DNA of 64,000 nucleotides from Rhodocollybia butyracea (taxonomy: Eukaryota; Basidiomycota; Agaricomycetes; Agaricales; Omphalotaceae), in NCBI GenBank assembly GCA_015501585.1, contig JADNRY010000003.1, forward strand, positions 806,001-870,000, written 5' to 3'. Within the stretch, counting starts at the first letter, position 1. Each line of letters opens with the position of its first letter. Positions 12,411 through 20,481 of the stretch are shown in pieces. The translations under genes were made by a program, and so were the position numbers. The notes beneath the pieces are model-generated. The model made no database searches, was not told where the DNA came from, and saw only the letters and a program-made list of their open reading frames with translations.

Positions 12411-12834
12411 ACCTAGCAGAGCATTGTATCAGGCGCGTAGCCTTATCATTCGTCACTCGATATTTCCTTGCTATAGCTCGCAGGCATATCTAACTTCCTC
12501 GTCATTGCATGGCATCTCTATCTGTAGAGGCGATGCTAGTTTCGAACATGTGCAAGACCCCCTCAAGACCCTCGACTAAAGAACAGGAATATATCTGCCA
12601 ATAGGTATGTACACGGAGACAGCATCGCCCATGCTGCCAAGTCATCAAAGAACCCTGCAGGCCACAGAGTATACTCTGTAACACTTATATAACAAGGACC
12701 GCCCGCATCTACAGGCGCGTGTTTGAACTTGTGCGAGCGGAGAATATATAAATGATAAGGATTTTTCCAACCGTTGGCATCTCTCCTAGATAGCCCCTTG
12801 CCTTTTCGATCTTTTGGCTTTTACCTTCCTCGTC
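12411..12834. other. Spacer upstream of the sedolisin gene
   Basis: The spacer between the retroposon and the sedolisin start. It holds TATATAA-like sequence near 12745-12751, followed by a C/T-rich stretch before the ATG at 12835, which could be the promoter of the sedolisin gene. No coding signal. Confidence 0.4.
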
Positions 12835-14881
12835 ATGATTTTTTGCTCACCAGGAGGCTGGCATCTACTGCAGGTATGGTCCCTAGTGTCCGTGGCGGTC
12901 ACGTATGGTGCTATTATCAACAGTCGTACCATGTCTCTGCATGATCGTCGCGATTCAATACCCAATGGGTATACCCAGATTGGTGTTGCGACTGACGATA
13001 CAATACTCCACATGCGTATCAATATCGAAATGGGGAATCGTACGGGACTCGAGGACGCGTTGAACAAGGCTAGTGATCCATCTCACGAGAAATATGGCCA
13101 GTGGTTATCACAGGAAGATGTGAGTGGTTCTAGACAGTCTTTTTATTTCTAACCATACTCAATGTTAAGCCTAGATTCAATACTACGCTGCCCCAACCCG
13201 CGAGGCGCTTCACTCTGTCCGAAAATGGCTCTCCTCAAACAACATTGACTCACAGTCAACGACCGTATCAGGAGACTGGATTAAATTCAATGTTTCCGTG
13301 GGGACCGCTAATACCATGCTTAACGCAAAGTACAGTATATTCGAATATACAGCTAGCGGGAAGCAGGCCGTGCGTACGCTAGAATACAGTGTGCCAGAAG
13401 ACCTGAGGGAATACATCAAAGCTATACATCCTGCTAGCTCGTGAATGCTGTTCAGTGGTTACAGCGGTCTGCCGAATACTTATTAGTTTTATTCTACAGG
13501 TTCTACCATTCGAGTGGGGGTCGAGTCATTTCCATTAGTGGACACCATCACAACATAGGCTCTGCTTCTAATGATGCATCTGAGAAAGCCTCGTCAAGCT
13601 CGACCTCAAGTGCAAGTCTTCCAACGTCAACCGCCCAGTTCTCCCACTGTAACGAGACTGTAACCCCCGCTTGCATCCAGAAGCTTTACGGTCTTCCCAC
13701 AACCTCAGTGAGCTCAAACACAAATAGTACAATTGGGGTTTCTGGATATTCCGGGCAAGATGCTAATAAGGTTTGTCAAAAGTATAGTTTAGAGTCTACT
13801 TTGGCTGACTCTTTTGCTCGTAGGCCGATTTAACAGCCTTCTTGAAGCTCTTCAAGCCAGATATACCCTCCAGTACAACATTCGGGACCGAGCTTTTGGA
13901 TGATGCAACAAACAGCCAAAATAATTCTGAGGCTGGCATGGAAGCTGTAAGTACTACATATGTACCTTTTTTCCCCACATAGTAGGCTGACCATTATGAT
14001 CTCGATAGAATTTGGATATTCAAGTAAGTAAGCAATATATATCCACGGTAAATCCTATATATCGCTTGACAGTACACAATTGGGCTGGCTAATGGAATCC
14101 CAACGACATTTTTTGACGTTGGCAACACTAATCTTGACGGAGACGATGGCGGTTTTCTTGACATAATCAATGACCTTCTGGCAGAGAGGAACCCCCCGTT
14201 GGTTCTAACCACCAGTTATGGCGTTGCTGGAGATGAAAGTGGACTATCCAGGCCTTTGACTTTTGCGATGTGCGATGCATTCATGAAGCTCACTGCGCGT
14301 GGTGTATCTATCCTATATGCTACTGGAGATGGAGGTGTTGCTTCATCTCCTGGCGGAGAATGCGATGACACACCATTTTTGGCTGCGTGGCCTACCTGCC
14401 CTTAGTAAGTGCGCTCCCTTCATTGTTCTGAATATGACTGATCACGATACCTCAACTATTTTGGACAGCCTTCGTGGCGTATGTGTTTCTTTGCTTTCGT
14501 TTTGAGGCTGAGCTAACCTTGGATCATTCAGAGCAAAATGCTGTAGCGACATACCTCGACAAAATTGATAGCACCCTGTACAAGGGACGGTATAATAGGG
14601 CCGGGCGTGGCTTCCCCGACGTCTCTGCTCAAGGCGAAAAAATCCAGATTATCGAATCTGGAGCGGTCACCACAGTGGCTGGAACTTCTGCTTCTTCGCC
14701 CATTTTCGCTGCAATTGTTGCACTTCTTAATGATGAACTGCTATCAGCTGGAAAGCCTCCATTGGGCTTCTTGAACCCATGGATTTACGCACACCCCGAA
14801 GCGTTCAACGACATCACAAGGTTTGTGATGACTGTGCTGCAGATTCTATTTTCGCTTAACAATTATTTTAGCGGTTCAAAC

Positions 14882-15087
14882 TATCAAGGTAATATCACTC
14901 TGGTACAGAGAGAGAGACGATAGGATTTATTAGTCCATGTAATACAATCAATGTTAATGATATACAAGTCCACATACCTGGTACAGAGAGAGAGACGATA
15001 GGGGCTCCTCTCTGACCAGGAAGGTAATATTAACTGAAACGGGTAATCAACCCTTATTTGGCTACGGCGCTAGGTCATCGCTCAACA
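14882..15087 (-). repeat. 3' LTR of the copia element
   Basis: 206 bp, begins TGTTGAGCGATGACC and ends CCTTGATA on the minus strand. It contains two copies of CTGGTACAGAGAGAGAGACG (plus-strand reading), near 14901 and 14978. The last codons of pol run into this LTR. Confidence 0.95.
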
Positions 15088-18000
15088 CCCCCCCTTGACT
15101 GGCGTCGAGGCCAAGTAGTTTGACCCATTGACGGTGTAGGATGCGGTGGAGTGGCTTGGTGAATATATCGGCGATGTTTTCCTTGTTGGAAATATAGACA
15201 ACGTCCACGAGGCGGTTAGTTATACAGTCGCGAATAAAGTGCTCGCGAATTGAGATGTGTTTCATCTTACTGTGGGCGTGCGGGTCGTGTGTACATGCGA
15301 TGGTCCCTTGGTTATCGCAGAAGATAGTAGTTGGTAGATATTGTGGGAAACCGAGTTCAGTGAAGAGATTCCTGAACCACAAAACTTCTCTAGCGCAGTG
15401 AGTTGTTGCTAAGTATTCTGCTTCGCAAGATGATAGGGCGACAACAGATTGCTGTTTCGAGCTCCACGAGAGGGGGGAACCGTTCATTGTGATCACGAAA
15501 CCGGAAACCGATTTCCTTTCATCGCCCATTCCCCAGTCAGAGTCTGTCAAAGCACGGACGAGGGGATAGGAAGGGTTGTTTCTTCCAAGCCAAACTCCGT
15601 AATCCATGGTTCCCTTCAGATATCGTAATAGGTGCTTGGCGGCAGCGATGTGTGAAGGGCCGTAGTTGGACATGAATCGCGCTAATTCACGAACTGTGTA
15701 CGCGATGTCGGGTCGAGAGCAAGTAGAGAGATACATACATTTCCCGACGACAGCTGTGTAAGGAAAAGTTTTGACCTTTTGCGCATCTTCTGGAGTGAGT
15801 TCCTCGGTGTTAGGGAAGAGGCGACAGCCCGGATCCATGGGAGTTGCGACAGAATTGCAGTTTTCGTAGTGGAATTCGCGGAGAATAGACAGGGTGTAGG
15901 TGCTTTGATCGAGGTGAATGGTGCGGTTGGCTCAATCCCGAGGAATCCTACATCCAAGGTGGAAGTTGGGTTCACCGTTGTCAGTGATCTCAAAGAGAGA
16001 AGCAAGTTCATCTATAACGAGGTCAGATTCTGTGGTCGAGCTGGACCCGATGAGCATGTCATCGACGCTTGTCGCGAGTAGTGATTTATCTGTTCCTCGG
16101 TTGCGATAGTAAACGCTCCAATCGGATTCGGTCCTTTTAAATCCAATGGATGTTAGTTTTTTGTGTAATTCCAGATACCATTGACGTCCCGATTGTTTTA
16201 GCCCATATAGGCCTTTACGAAGATGCCAAAATCCTGATCCTAACATCGTTGGTTTGCGAAGGTAGATCTCTTCATCGAGAGGACCGTTGAGGTAGGCTGT
16301 TTTAACGTCGATCTGTCGTAACTCCCAGTCTTGTTCTGCAACAAGAGCGAGGAGTGTTCGAATTGACTCCCATCTGGCTACAGGGGCAAATGTGTAATTG
16401 AAGTCTTGTCCTGGTATCTGAGTGAACCCTTTGGCGTCGAGGCGTGCTTTGAATCTGGAAATAAGTCCGTCACGATCTCTTTTAATGCGGAGTACCCATT
16501 TGGAGCCGACGGCTTTCCTCCCAGGAGGTAACTCGTCGATTTCCTCGTAGACACCCTTGGCATTTAAGGATTCGAGTTCCTCGTGGATGGCAGCTAGCCA
16601 GTGGGACCAGTATATGGAGGATTCAGCGTGTTGAATAGTCTCTGGATCTTTCTCGTTGATATCATCAATTGGTTGTTGTAGTGCACTTCCGATGAATGTT
16701 TCTGTGGCGATGAAGGATTGGGCAAGAGGAGCAAATTCGTCAGGGTCGCATTCCACTTCTATTTCGTGTTCTTCATCGTCGAGAGCTAGGAGGTTGAGTA
16801 GAACAGTGTTGTGCCCTCCCTCGTCAGGGGACGCAGTCAAAGCATCGACGCGGTAGCGAGTTGGTAGATATCTCGGGCGTGTGGAGCGACGGGGAGTGAA
16901 ATCAGAAGTGCCGTCGGTCATTTCGACGTCAGGACTGTGATAAAGTTAGGGTAGTTCTTTGGAGAATATTTATGATCGCAACGTACTCTAGATGTTTGCC
17001 ACTGTGTGGTGCATCTGAGTCAGTTGTGTCTGGGGACAGCCTGTAGAACAGGTTATTGTCAATGCGAGTCCCTTTATAATTGTTAGGGTCACGTACTCAA
17101 GATGATTATCACCGTGCGGTGCATCAGAGTTGTTCGTGCCCAGGGACAGCCTGTTTAACAGGTTATTATGCTTGTCCCTTACAATACTATAACCACGTAC
17201 CGGTGATTCAAGCCAGTGTGGATTGGGTCATCGGGTTCGATGGTTAGAGGAGAATGCCTGTGATACAGGTTAGGATAAATGTTTCCGAATGAGTATTGAC
17301 GTACTCAGGAAGAGGGTTAGGATCATCGCTGAATGAGATGTCATCCCATAAGATTTCGGAGAGAGGAGGTGACGGAAGATGTTCAGGAAATCCGTGGAAG
17401 TCGACGTCTTGTCGGGAACGGATGGATTTTGAAGAAGGAAACCAAATAAGGTAGCCCTTAGAATCCTTAGCGTATCTAACGAATCTTCCCTCTTCTCCTC
17501 TAGGCTCCAATTTATTAATATGATCGGAGTCTGTTTTCCTTGCGGTAACAAGAGCGCCGAAAGGTCGAAGATGAGAGAGGTCAGGTCTCTTGCGATACCA
17601 ACCTCGGAAAGGAGTGAAATCGGGTGGCAGGGAGAAGTGTGGAACACGATTTTTGATATGTACACTGGCTTGTGTACTTAGTGGCCAGAACCAGTTCGTC
17701 ATCTGGCAGTCGACGAGCATTGCTCTGGACATGGACTCGATGATTTGATTTGCTTGTTCTGCGACTCCATTTTGTTGTGAGGCATCGGGGATGGTTTTCT
17801 CGTATGAGATACCTTCAGCTTCGCAATAGCTTTTGAATTGCCCCTCTACAAGTTCCGGAGTGTTGTCTACACGAAGGAAGACAATAGGATAACCAAGTTG
17901 TTTTTCAGCGGCAGCACAAAAGATAGTGAAAGTTTTAAGGGCTTCGGATTTGTGTTTTAGAAAGAAAATAACGATAAAGCGACTGAAGTCGTCAATGAAA

Positions 18001-18343
18001 GTGATGAAGTAGCGGAAGCCTCCATATCCAACAGGAAAGGGGCCACAAATGTCGGAGTGAATATGAAAGAGAGGGCGGTCTGCGCGATTGGAAGCTTTTC
18101 GAGGGAACTTGAGTCGTTTTATGTTGGCAAGGGCACAGATTTGACAGTGTTCGACTCTAACACTGTCAATATCCGGTGGAAGTCCGGTGGTTGCTTTCCG
18201 GAGCCCTTTAACGTCTATATGGCCTATTAGACGGTGGTAAAACCCAACTTCCTCATGTCCTCGGTATCTGTCCTCGGTCCGAATAGCGTAGTGATTGACG
18301 GGACCATTGATGCAATCAAGTTTGATTGCGGAGTAGGTTCCTG
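15062..18343 (-). CDS. pol: Copia Pol (integrase, RT, RNase H) with four putative introns and a TGA
   Basis: The -1 frame opens near 18343. Integrase shows H-H (YHRLIGHID), C-C (CQIC) and the catalytic core (HSDICGPF, VDNTPEL, NGVAEQANQIIE). The ORF continues into RT only if introns 17258-17304, 17151-17200, 17041-17096 and 16935-16986 are removed; all are GTACGT...AG with CTAAC or ATAAC branch-like sites. Exons A-C (57, 54 and 54 nt) join in frame. RT carries KWVLRIKRDRDG, RQIDVKTAYLNG and SVDDMLIGS; RNase H has DSDWGMGDERKSVSGF and SSCEAEYLA. A TGA at 15932-15934 interrupts RT (PRD-stop-ANRTIHL), most simply a CGA to TGA change. Without splicing, translation would end at 17244, just after integrase. 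Confidence 0.88.
15088..15096 (-). other. Polypurine tract
   Basis: The coding strand reads AAGGGGGGG directly before the 3' LTR, the expected place for plus-strand DNA priming. Confidence 0.75.
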
Positions 18344-20089
18344 ATCAAAGGGCGGTGGCATCGGAGATACGGACATCTTGTAGAGATCCTTGACGATGCT
18401 TCCGCTGGCGAAAGGTTCACCTGCCGATGTTAAATAGACGATGTTGCCTTCACCTGTTCTTGTATGAACACCCTTTCTATCCAGTCTGGAGCCGGAAATT
18501 AGATTGCATCTGGCAGTTGGAATGTGGAGGACATTTGATATAGAGAAGACGCGAGAAGACCCGTTATGGTGAGCGTTGAGAACAATTTTTCCTTTTCCGA
18601 CAGCTACAGCCGTGAGATTTGAACCAAAACCGGAGACAGTAAGCGGGTCGTTAAAGGTGACATAGTCATGGAAGAGGGAACGGCTATGGAATATATGGCG
18701 AGAGGCGCCAGTGTCGTGGTTGACACTGTCGTCGTGAATGCATGTGTCGCTGAGTGCAATGACATTAACAAAAATGTCTTCGTTGTCCTCGATGTCGTCC
18801 TCATCAAAGTCCATAGCGTCCAGCATGTAGATCAAAGGTTGTAAGTTTCTGTTGACTTCCTCGTCACTATCATTTGACAGTTGTACTGCTCCAGCGAAAC
18901 GATTCGCTGAGTCCATATCATAGTCTTCACCTTGTTTCAGTTCCTTCCTTTGAGCTAGAATTCTTGCTTCTGGTGAGAGGTGGATATCTCTTCTTCCACC
19001 GTAATTTGAAGGATATTTCCTGACTTTTCCTCCTTTATAGGCACAGCAGTTGTCTAAAGTGTGACCAATGGGTGTCTCACAGTACGGATTATCGCAGAAG
19101 AGTCCAGAGCGACGTTGACGTTGGTTTGGATTGTAAGGTGTAGGACGTCTATATTGACGTTGCTGTTTTCTGGTGTTGTTAGATGGAGCTATGCTGATTC
19201 GTTGCTCGAGGGGAACAGAAGCAGCGACGGCATAAGCGCTAGGAACAGCATCGGACGAAGAAGTAGCTTTACTCTTCCCTTTGCCAGATTTAACCAATGA
19301 GTTCATTGCCTTTACTGCAGGTGCAATTTTCTTGTCAATTTCTTCACTTTTGAGACGAGTGATAACGGTGGCTGAGGAAAGGGGTTTATTGGTACGTTGA
19401 GCTGTAGCAAGCATGCTTCGAAGCTCATCGCGGCAGTATCTCCATTTGTCGTCCTTTGACATATGCGTGATTAGCATTTTGGCGAATTCAGCGTCTGGCA
19501 TAAGAGTAGAATCGGAAGCGCGAAGCTTTGCATAGAGCTCGCTCATGGTCCGTAACCACTGGGCAGGATCGTCACCTGGATTGCATGCATTAGTACTGAT
19601 TTCTTGCTGGTAATCCAAGGCCATGAGACTGTTGTTGGGTTCGTATTCGTCACAGAGAGCTTCCCAAGCATCGTGAGCAGTTTTACAATGCGCGATGACA
19701 TAGGCCTTTTCAGTGGGGACGGCGTCGGTGATGAGAGCAAGGGTTTGTTCGTCGCCTTCAATCCAGGCACTGTTTATGCGATTCGCCATTGCTACTTGTT
19801 TCTCGTTTCCTTGCAAGTGAATATCGATGGGGTTACCGGAGGTGTCAGTTCCTTGAATTCTGCGAGCAGGCTGCAACGTCGGAATTGTTGGGGGATGATA
19901 GTCTTCACCTCCGATGTACTTCCAAAGTCTGGCAGCGGTCAATTTTATGGTAGACTTGAACTTGAACTCGCTGAAATTGTTTGTACCATCTTCTTTCTCT
20001 TTAATAGGAATTAGAGTAACCCGTTTCCAGTCCTGACAAGATTGTCCGTTATTGACTGAGTTATTATGAGAGTTTGTTGGTCTGGACAT
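18227..20089 (-). CDS. gag-pr: Copia Gag-protease ORF
   Basis: 620 codons from ATG at 20089. The N-terminal part is a UBN2-type Gag (AHDAWEALCDEYE, LDYQQEISTNACNPGD, QWLRTMSELYAKL). A zinc-knuckle-like CCHC cluster follows (CDNPYCETPIGHTLDNC, about residues 335-352), then an acidic linker and the aspartic protease with active site HDTGASRHIFHS (about residue 465). The reading continues through the start of the GAG-pre-integrase region (DLYKM) to a TAA at 18227. The integrase zinc finger lies in the -1 frame, so Gag-PR and Pol are not in one continuous frame. Whether this is programmed frameshifting or an indel is discussed under findings. Confidence 0.9.
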   Translation of the reverse strand: MSRPTNSHNNSVNNGQSCQDWKRVTLIPIKEKEDGTNNFSEFKFKSTIKLTAARLWKYIGGEDYHPPTIPTLQPARRIQGTDTSGNPIDIHLQGNEKQVAMANRINSAWIEGDEQTLALITDAVPTEKAYVIAHCKTAHDAWEALCDEYEPNNSLMALDYQQEISTNACNPGDDPAQWLRTMSELYAKLRASDSTLMPDAEFAKMLITHMSKDDKWRYCRDELRSMLATAQRTNKPLSSATVITRLKSEEIDKKIAPAVKAMNSLVKSGKGKSKATSSSDAVPSAYAVAASVPLEQRISIAPSNNTRKQQRQYRRPTPYNPNQRQRRSGLFCDNPYCETPIGHTLDNCCAYKGGKVRKYPSNYGGRRDIHLSPEARILAQRKELKQGEDYDMDSANRFAGAVQLSNDSDEEVNRNLQPLIYMLDAMDFDEDDIEDNEDIFVNVIALSDTCIHDDSVNHDTGASRHIFHSRSLFHDYVTFNDPLTVSGFGSNLTAVAVGKGKIVLNAHHNGSSRVFSISNVLHIPTARCNLISGSRLDRKGVHTRTGEGNIVYLTSAGEPFASGSIVKDLYKMSVSPMPPPFDQEPTPQSNLIASMVPSITTLFGPRTDTEDMRKLGFTTV

Positions 20090-20150
20090 GATGCGAAGAC
20101 TGGAAATAGATGATATGATATTGATTTCTTTGCAGTGTGTTTAGCACACG

Positions 20151-20162
20151 GGGCCCATAACC
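20151..20162 (-). other. Primer-binding site (initiator tRNA-Met anticodon region)
   Basis: Immediately next to the 5' LTR the coding strand reads GGTTATGGGCCC. This is complementary to the anticodon stem-loop of eukaryotic initiator tRNA-Met (GGGCCCAUAACC), the half-tRNA priming mode known from Drosophila copia, not the tRNA 3' end used by most retroelements. Confidence 0.8.
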
Positions 20163-20368
20163 TATCAAGGTAATATCACTCTGGTACAGAGAGAGAGACG
20201 ATAGGATTTATTAGTCCATGTAATACAATCAATGTTAATGATATACAAGTCCACATACCTGGTACAGAGAGAGAGACGATAGGGGCTCCTCTCTGACCAG
20301 GAAGGTAATATTAACTGAAACGGGTAATCAACCCTTATTTGGCTACGGCGCTAGGTCATCGCTCAACA
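20163..20368 (-). repeat. 5' LTR of the copia element
   Basis: 206 bp, by eye identical to the other LTR. It starts with TG on the coding strand but ends in TA rather than the usual CA. It should hold the element's promoter. Confidence 0.95.
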
Positions 20369-20481
20369 CAAACCCTGGCTGTAACACAGAGGGCTTTCCA
20401 GCTCTCACTGGATGGGACCCAGTGACTGGCGTCGGTTCTCCAAACTATCCAGCGATGAGAAAAGCATTGGGACTGTCATAG

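Follow-up and report, generated by a model that had tools for sequence, protein, structure and literature searches.

The window analyzed here, a 64,000-nucleotide stretch of the Rhodocollybia butyracea genome (contig JADNRY010000003.1, positions 806,001 to 870,000), carries a whole Copia-type long terminal repeat (LTR) retrotransposon on its minus strand. Its domain order, Gag-protease (PR)-integrase (INT)-reverse transcriptase (RT)-RNase H (RH) with an RVT_2 domain, is that of Copia, and its LTRs, which looked identical in an original prediction made from the sequence and are so at 206 of 206 positions, are enclosed by a 5-bp target-site duplication, CAAAC. RNase H was named by its place after RT and by family homology; a Pfam search of its part of the frame (15062-15931) gave zero domain matches. 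The four domain pieces contain zero internal stops, and a TGA at 15932-15934 divides RT from RNase H. Between INT and RT lie four short segments with the features of spliceosomal introns, which are the subject of this report.

Introns between integrase and reverse transcriptase

The original prediction had placed four segments starting with GTACGT, and preceded at their acceptors by CTAAC or ATAAC, in the INT-RT linker. Direct reading of the minus strand confirmed all four together with their ends (Table 1). The same four were returned by an unbiased search, in which a dynamic programme was supplied with just two frames, that of INT at its start and that of RT at its end, any GTRNGY..YAG segment with a TRAY branch motif was a candidate, and exons had to be stop-free. 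Its solution consisted of exactly these introns, with internal exons of 57, 54, and 54 nt, and restored the frame; all four junctions are in phase 2, in agreement with the claim that phase is kept throughout. GT..AG ends, a branch motif, a fungal length, and a kept frame characterize U2 spliceosomal introns, and exact removal is visible indirectly, as exact absence in natural retrocopies. Dinucleotide shuffles of the window linker produced a chain in 0 of 1000 cases, strict or relaxed. With a stop-tolerant version of the scoring, the linker reached 14.4, compared with a maximum of -0.7 over 100 shuffles. The further claim of one continuous open reading frame (ORF) after splicing held from the INT frame to the TGA at 15932-15934 but not upstream, where the Gag-PR frame differs from that of INT.

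Without splicing, the three frames of the 469-nt linker contain 11, 5, and 13 stops. INT and RT might instead be joined by recoding, either through a second frameshift or through stop readthrough, as the family probably uses -1 frameshifting upstream and one degenerate copy (C701) has a linker that is open without splicing. Such a mechanism would, however, have to overcome at least five stops in each frame of the window linker, and, because the total intron length is not the same modulo 3 in all relatives, there is no fixed frame relation. We consider recoding very improbable.

The four introns are not independent observations because intron-plus-exon units were tandemly duplicated. Units 2 and 3 form a tandemly duplicated pair with 82 of 101 positions identical and a score of 108.5, against a maximum of 33 in 200 shuffles. 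Unit 1 scored above all 200 shuffles in comparison with each of units 2, 3, and 4; the pairs 2-4 and 3-4 did not. As far as sequence can tell, it is the comparison with relatives, not the count of four, that settles the intron question.

Table 1. Features of the Copia element, in window positions
Feature	Position	Strand	Basis or remark
Whole Copia element, LTR TGTTGA...TTGATA	14882..20368	-	LTR pair and perfect 5-bp target-site duplication
Target-site duplications CAAAC	14877..14881 and 20369..20373	.	perfect match on both sides
5' LTR	20163..20368	-	206/206 identical to 3' LTR
Gag-PR open frame, stop to stop	18227..20140	-	Pfam: Retrotran_gag_2 and Pol_BBD
Slippery heptamer GGGTTTT (X XXY YYZ), gag register	18239..18245	-	16 nt before gag TAA 18229-18227
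Possible 6-bp hairpin CGUCUA...UAGACG	18212..18233	-	5 nt after slippery site; weak, no significant energy
INT open frame, rve and SH3_retrovirus	17244..18344	-	Pfam; unspliced, closes in exon 2
Intron 1 (47 nt)	17258..17304	-	GTACGT..CACAG, phase 2
Mini-exon 2 (57 nt)	17201..17257	-	frame-restoring chain
Intron 2 (50 nt)	17151..17200	-	GTACGT..AACAG, phase 2
Mini-exon 3 (54 nt)	17097..17150	-	frame-restoring chain
Intron 3 (56 nt)	17041..17096	-	GTACGT..TACAG, phase 2; tandem duplicate of preceding unit
Mini-exon 4 (54 nt)	16987..17040	-	frame-restoring chain
Intron 4 (52 nt)	16935..16986	-	GTACGT..CACAG, phase 2; exactly absent in sibling C681
RT open frame, RVT_2, entered from intron 4 acceptor	15932..16945	-	Pfam; TGA end at 15932-15934
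RNase H part of RT-RH frame	15062..15931	-	Copia position after RT and family homology
3' LTR	14882..15087	-	206/206 identical to 5' LTR

Exact losses and intron arrays in relatives

Searching the genome for DNA similar to 16800-17500 gave five places: the window itself, C1066 (99% identical), C716 (96%), C681 (89%), and C701 (67-71%, in two pieces). C681 lacked exactly the 52 nt of intron 4 (flank match 49/50, next best 39 or 40) and retained introns 1-3, save for a 10-nt deletion at the intron 1 donor. In other subfamilies, C605:5383 was without exactly intron 1 as present in C1 and C724 (49/50, next 46), and C705 and C643 were both without exactly the third intron present in C1316 (48/50 and 49/50, next 40 and 44). 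The missing segments end precisely at GT and AG in each of the three lineages; one of the absences is shared by C705 and C643. Each of the four copies with a loss is bounded by an LTR pair (98.2-100% identical) and 5-bp target duplications and was therefore inserted by retrotransposition. Judged from these junctions, exact excision in three lineages is the trace of partly spliced RNA that was reverse-transcribed. A further case had been suspected by eye, in which C113/C267 and C883-type copies would lack the last intron relative to C1/C724; it reached 34/50 at best in the exact-junction test and was not counted as a loss.

The same differences could be read as intron gains through introner-like insertions rather than as RNA-mediated losses, and tandem intron-plus-exon duplications do show that gains occur in the array. 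However, the introns absent from C681, C605:5383, and C705/C643 have same-place counterparts in more distant subfamilies (compared by eye), so the absence looks derived, and insertion of an intron alone, exactly at GT..AG, would require a separate mechanism. Gain is an improbable explanation.

The genome (95.6 Mb in 1381 contigs) contains at least 150 Copia RT matches. About 44 family places, including the window, were found with the INT frame, the others at 48-97% identity. Thirty loci were fetched and had readable linkers in 28 cases; 27 of these 28 (one with a large insertion was omitted) were scored together with C1316 and C1271. The best chain comprised 2-4 introns in 28 of the 29 scored linkers, and 24 outscored all 100 of their shuffles. 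Mini-exons measured 54, 57, or 60 nt in the cleanest fits. Every intron was in phase 2 in 13 clean-fit copies chosen from the 29 for this check, and intron lengths among the 13 varied modulo 3. An LTR pair could be recognized in 13 of 15 elements (14 fetched plus the window copy), 98.2-100% identical over about 204-228 nt, and all 13 have intron arrays in their linkers. Matching 5-bp target duplications were found by script in 11 of the 13; L051 has TTTGA on both sides, seen by eye, and L046 has no clean target duplication. Past the linker, the RT-RH frame of C1066 runs uninterrupted over 627 codons. The TGA between RT and RNase H is common to the window copy and C716, and CGA stands there in C1066, C681, and C701. 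The original prediction had proposed a check of sibling copies for the introns: arrays do occur in the family elements, but single introns were sometimes lost in transposition.

These data also bear on the possibility that the linker is decayed coding sequence of a dead element and resembles introns by chance. Decay would fit the TGA that divides RT from RNase H in the window copy and the stops, mostly TGA, in many family copies. The exact GT..AG absences in three lineages contradict this explanation; moreover, the shuffles gave no chain, the window copy has identical LTRs and stop-free domain pieces, and the same structure is found in young copies of several subfamilies. We find it scarcely credible.

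Some further observations were made on the family. TGA accounted for 35 of 38 internal stops in the aligned domain pieces of L045-L058 (hand count), and in several copies GTACAT stands in place of the donor GTACGT, which together with the TGA excess is a CpG decay pattern. L031 (C1343), of another subfamily, has a near-perfect tandem duplication of an intron-plus-exon unit in its INT-RT linker as seen by eye, and array growth seems to have recurred independently there. In L037 (C672), the linker is broken by an insertion of about 0.7 kb with apparently inverted-repeat ends (by eye). Other Copia elements of the genome (C439, C722, C572, C1327, C838, C109, C431, C883, C442, and C594) carry INT and RT together in a single open frame of 1038-1654 amino acids, as matched by hand between the INT and RT searches.

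Relatives were also found among metagenomic proteins. The INT frame matched 373 of them, of which 120 entered the analysis. Tails were analyzed in 114 proteins, three having been dropped for short alignment and three for very long tails (two of the latter, P0059 and P0120, continue into RT). The dipeptide YV, which is the read-through of a retained phase-2 GTAYGT donor, was found 45 times in 6811 tail residues and 16 times in 31017 body residues. As read from these translated tails, the metagenomic relatives show the same intron donor signature. Together with the exact single losses in three lineages and the recurrence in the family, this bears out the claim that the segments are spliceosomal introns.

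With the RT-RH frame of C1066 as query, 7193 matches were obtained among 7981 candidates scored. Among the best 120 of the 7193, 111 had no INT part in the ORF and eight had INT and RT in one ORF, seven of them starting at MGHI-like sequences, where the INT frame opens. The ninth fused relative, P0126, starts in the last part of INT and continues into RT. One close relative, P0138, is named from Mycena citricolor; a scan of viral contigs found no relative. In a tree built from 145 RT sequences (117 relatives, three short ones among the 120 having been removed, 20 genome copies, and eight outgroups), the nine fused rows required eight separate changes, namely seven single tips and the pair P0125/P0126, all within the split clade. 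The outgroup, eight other Copia sequences of this genome, separated with full support, though on long branches. Repeated fusion with little radiation would be expected if the split state is favored and suggests as much, although undersampling could look alike.

A frameshift site upstream and a model with two gates

The original prediction had let unspliced RNA yield Gag-PR-IN. This stands for Gag-PR, but INT would be reached by a probable -1 frameshift at a conserved site, GGGTTTT, that the prediction had overlooked, as it had the TGA between RT and RNase H. All 15 family elements compared have the heptamer in gag register, at a distance of 16 nt from the gag stop except in L051 (88 nt), in which an extra T fuses the frames. 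INT lay in the -1 frame in 14 of the 15. A conserved, in-register heptamer within an overlap is the mark of -1 frameshifting. Synonymous codon identity, calculated over same-residue pairs, was 0.86 in INT 34-49 around the site compared with 0.51 in INT 60-330, a rise that in part reflects the overlap with gag. A -1 frameshift thus likely joins Gag-PR to INT.

The intron boundaries, the exact losses, the recurrence in the family, and the conserved slippery site are all read directly from DNA. Our explanation, to which we assign a probability of roughly 85%, is that the window element belongs to a fungal Copia lineage with two gates, frameshifting for INT and splicing for RT, and is one of its young copies. 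At the first gate, Gag-PR would stop 16 nt past GGGUUUU, and a -1 frameshift there would add INT. The second would consist of the 2-4 short introns between INT and RT, in phase 2 in the clean fits and separated by mini-exons whose length is a multiple of three. Whenever a stop-bearing intron is retained, translation would end just past INT, and only RNA with a spliced array would encode Gag-PR-INT-RT-RH. Gag-PR would accordingly be the main product, Gag-PR-INT a lesser one made by frameshifting, and Gag-PR-INT-RT-RH one made from spliced RNA only. As the internal exons are symmetric, exon skipping or unit duplication keeps the frame, and only retention breaks it.

A retroelement copied through RNA is expected to lose its introns. 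A copy that has every intron and identical LTRs requires an unspliced RNA template, and an exact single-intron loss requires a spliced or partly spliced one; the two RNA pools of the original prediction are thus supported from the DNA of intron-full young copies and single losses. Because the cDNA copies keep introns, packaged RNA would usually be unspliced or partly spliced. The introns would persist since such RNA is the normal template, and the copying of a partly spliced RNA would at times remove a single intron. That packaged RNA keeps its introns may be due to slow splicing, to early export, or to selective packaging. From the DNA we infer the frameshifting itself, inefficient or regulated splicing, and an RT dose set by splicing. 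The arrangement in which an unusual control mechanism had been seen recurs in this Copia lineage and is not peculiar to one copy; it may serve a regulatory purpose.

The introns may be real and spliced and still have no control function, as neutral passengers that were kept by packaging before splicing or by incomplete splicing and were multiplied by tandem duplication. Consistent with this are the duplicated intron-plus-exon units, the tolerance of single-intron losses (C705 and C643 share one), an intron number that ranges from 2 to 4 between subfamilies, and the sister position of the fused relatives P0125 and P0126. It speaks against passengers that all introns of the 13 checked copies share one phase and that the introns cluster in the linker, as follows from the 627 open codons of C1066. 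Furthermore, the eight separate changes needed for INT-RT fusion in the 120 relatives suggest that loss of the gate is costly, a pattern that undersampling could also produce. We regard neutral passengers as unlikely.

A number of observations weigh against the two-gate model. The TGA between RT and RNase H would cut the RT-RH product of the window copy itself. C701 is truncated, 67-71% identical in the matched stretches, and interrupted by TGA in other places, and its INT-RT linker is open in frame without splicing; the claim that RT needs splicing is upheld by the stops in the window linker but not by this degenerate one. Together with the fused metagenomic proteins, the linkers of some of which resemble read-through introns, C701 indicates that splicing is not obligatory everywhere, and the sister position of P0125 and P0126 on the tree indicates that the fused state can be inherited. 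Five of the 29 linkers (L017, L028, L030, L031, and L036) did not outscore their 100 shuffles, and L017, L030, and L031 belong to LTR-paired elements. Weaker fits, with merged exons or exons of non-multiple-of-three length, were obtained for L018, L023, L027, L031, L032, L040, L041, L059, and L060. The possible hairpin behind the slippery site appeared in folds of the window copy and L054 but not of L055 or L057, with z-scores that were not significant. The protein search admitted only 345-1097 amino acids, so ordinary single-ORF Copia proteins were excluded by design, and contig ends could mimic some of the split ORFs. An extension of the two-gate model falls a little short of an even bet and is offered tentatively: a widespread fungal Copia lineage may dose its enzymes by two serial gates, the tandemly expandable, phase-matched array serving as a rheostat through its length, and copies that escape the gate would recur but rarely found lineages.

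Several other features of the locus deserve mention. The Gag-PR frame has its first ATG at 20089 and a DTGAS motif, both read by eye. GGTTATGGGCCC lies directly after the 5' LTR at 20162-20151 and, by what we assume is a resemblance to the anticodon arm of the initiator tRNA, is a candidate primer binding site. Within each LTR (20163-20368 and 14882-15087, minus strand), CCTATCGTCTCTCTCTCTGTACCAG occurs twice as a direct repeat of 25 nt, at positions 86-110 and 164-188 of the LTR. A stretch of 78 nt, which runs from the GTATGT behind copy one to the CAG of copy two, resembles an additional intron that may have originated when a segment bearing splice sites was duplicated. The element seems to lie within a sedolisin-type protease gene of the host (12790-14881 and 20369-20481, plus strand). 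Pfam identified Pro-kumamolisin activation domains to the left of the element; three further pieces closer to it had no Pfam match. On the 20369-20481 side, just past the other target duplication, NPGCNTEGFPALTGWDPVTGVGSPNY presumably corresponds to the C-terminus of sedolisin-type proteases, which it resembles.

Comparison with known retroelements

In several subfamilies, intron arrays have survived recent transposition, and exact single losses record the copying of partly spliced genomes. Intron retention in packaged RNA, with its cost or benefit, becomes directly testable, and the family offers a natural assay for tandem duplication and retro-loss of introns. Gene finders will read such elements as broken.

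Splicing as a gate within pol is already known in kind from the plant element Ogre (Ty3/gypsy), the nearest precedent, in which an intron between protease and RT is spliced from a subset of transcripts (PMC6317226). Ogre has the gypsy gene order, with one intron between protease and RT-RH-INT, whereas the fungal element has the Copia order, with INT before RT, an array of 2-4 introns between these two, and an apparent -1 frameshift site. Among fungal Copia elements, those of the GalEa type resemble it in having INT before RT, a 5-bp target-site duplication, and LTRs starting with TGT, but they have a single large ORF (PMC5445492). The word intron is absent from the main text of that survey and is used once in a report on Laccaria transposons (PMC3411680). 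A literature search, mostly of titles and abstracts, found no INT-RT intron array described for a fungal Copia element, which is not proof of absence. Within the literature searched, the INT-RT place, the array form, the coupling to a frameshift site, the reversed direction for Copia, and the spread in fungi appear to be new.

That reversal emerges from Drosophila copia, barley BARE1, and Arabidopsis EVADE, Copia elements in which splicing sets the ratios of proteins made from two or more RNAs (PMC3735527; PMC12786077; PMC8892269). Their unspliced RNA encodes an uninterrupted Gag-Pol, and splicing yields Gag only. In the element studied here, the unspliced linker has stops in all frames, and spliced RNA would encode the longest product. 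It would thus add to the known Copia cases a control logic of the opposite kind, in which spliced RNA encodes more, together with an apparent frameshift.
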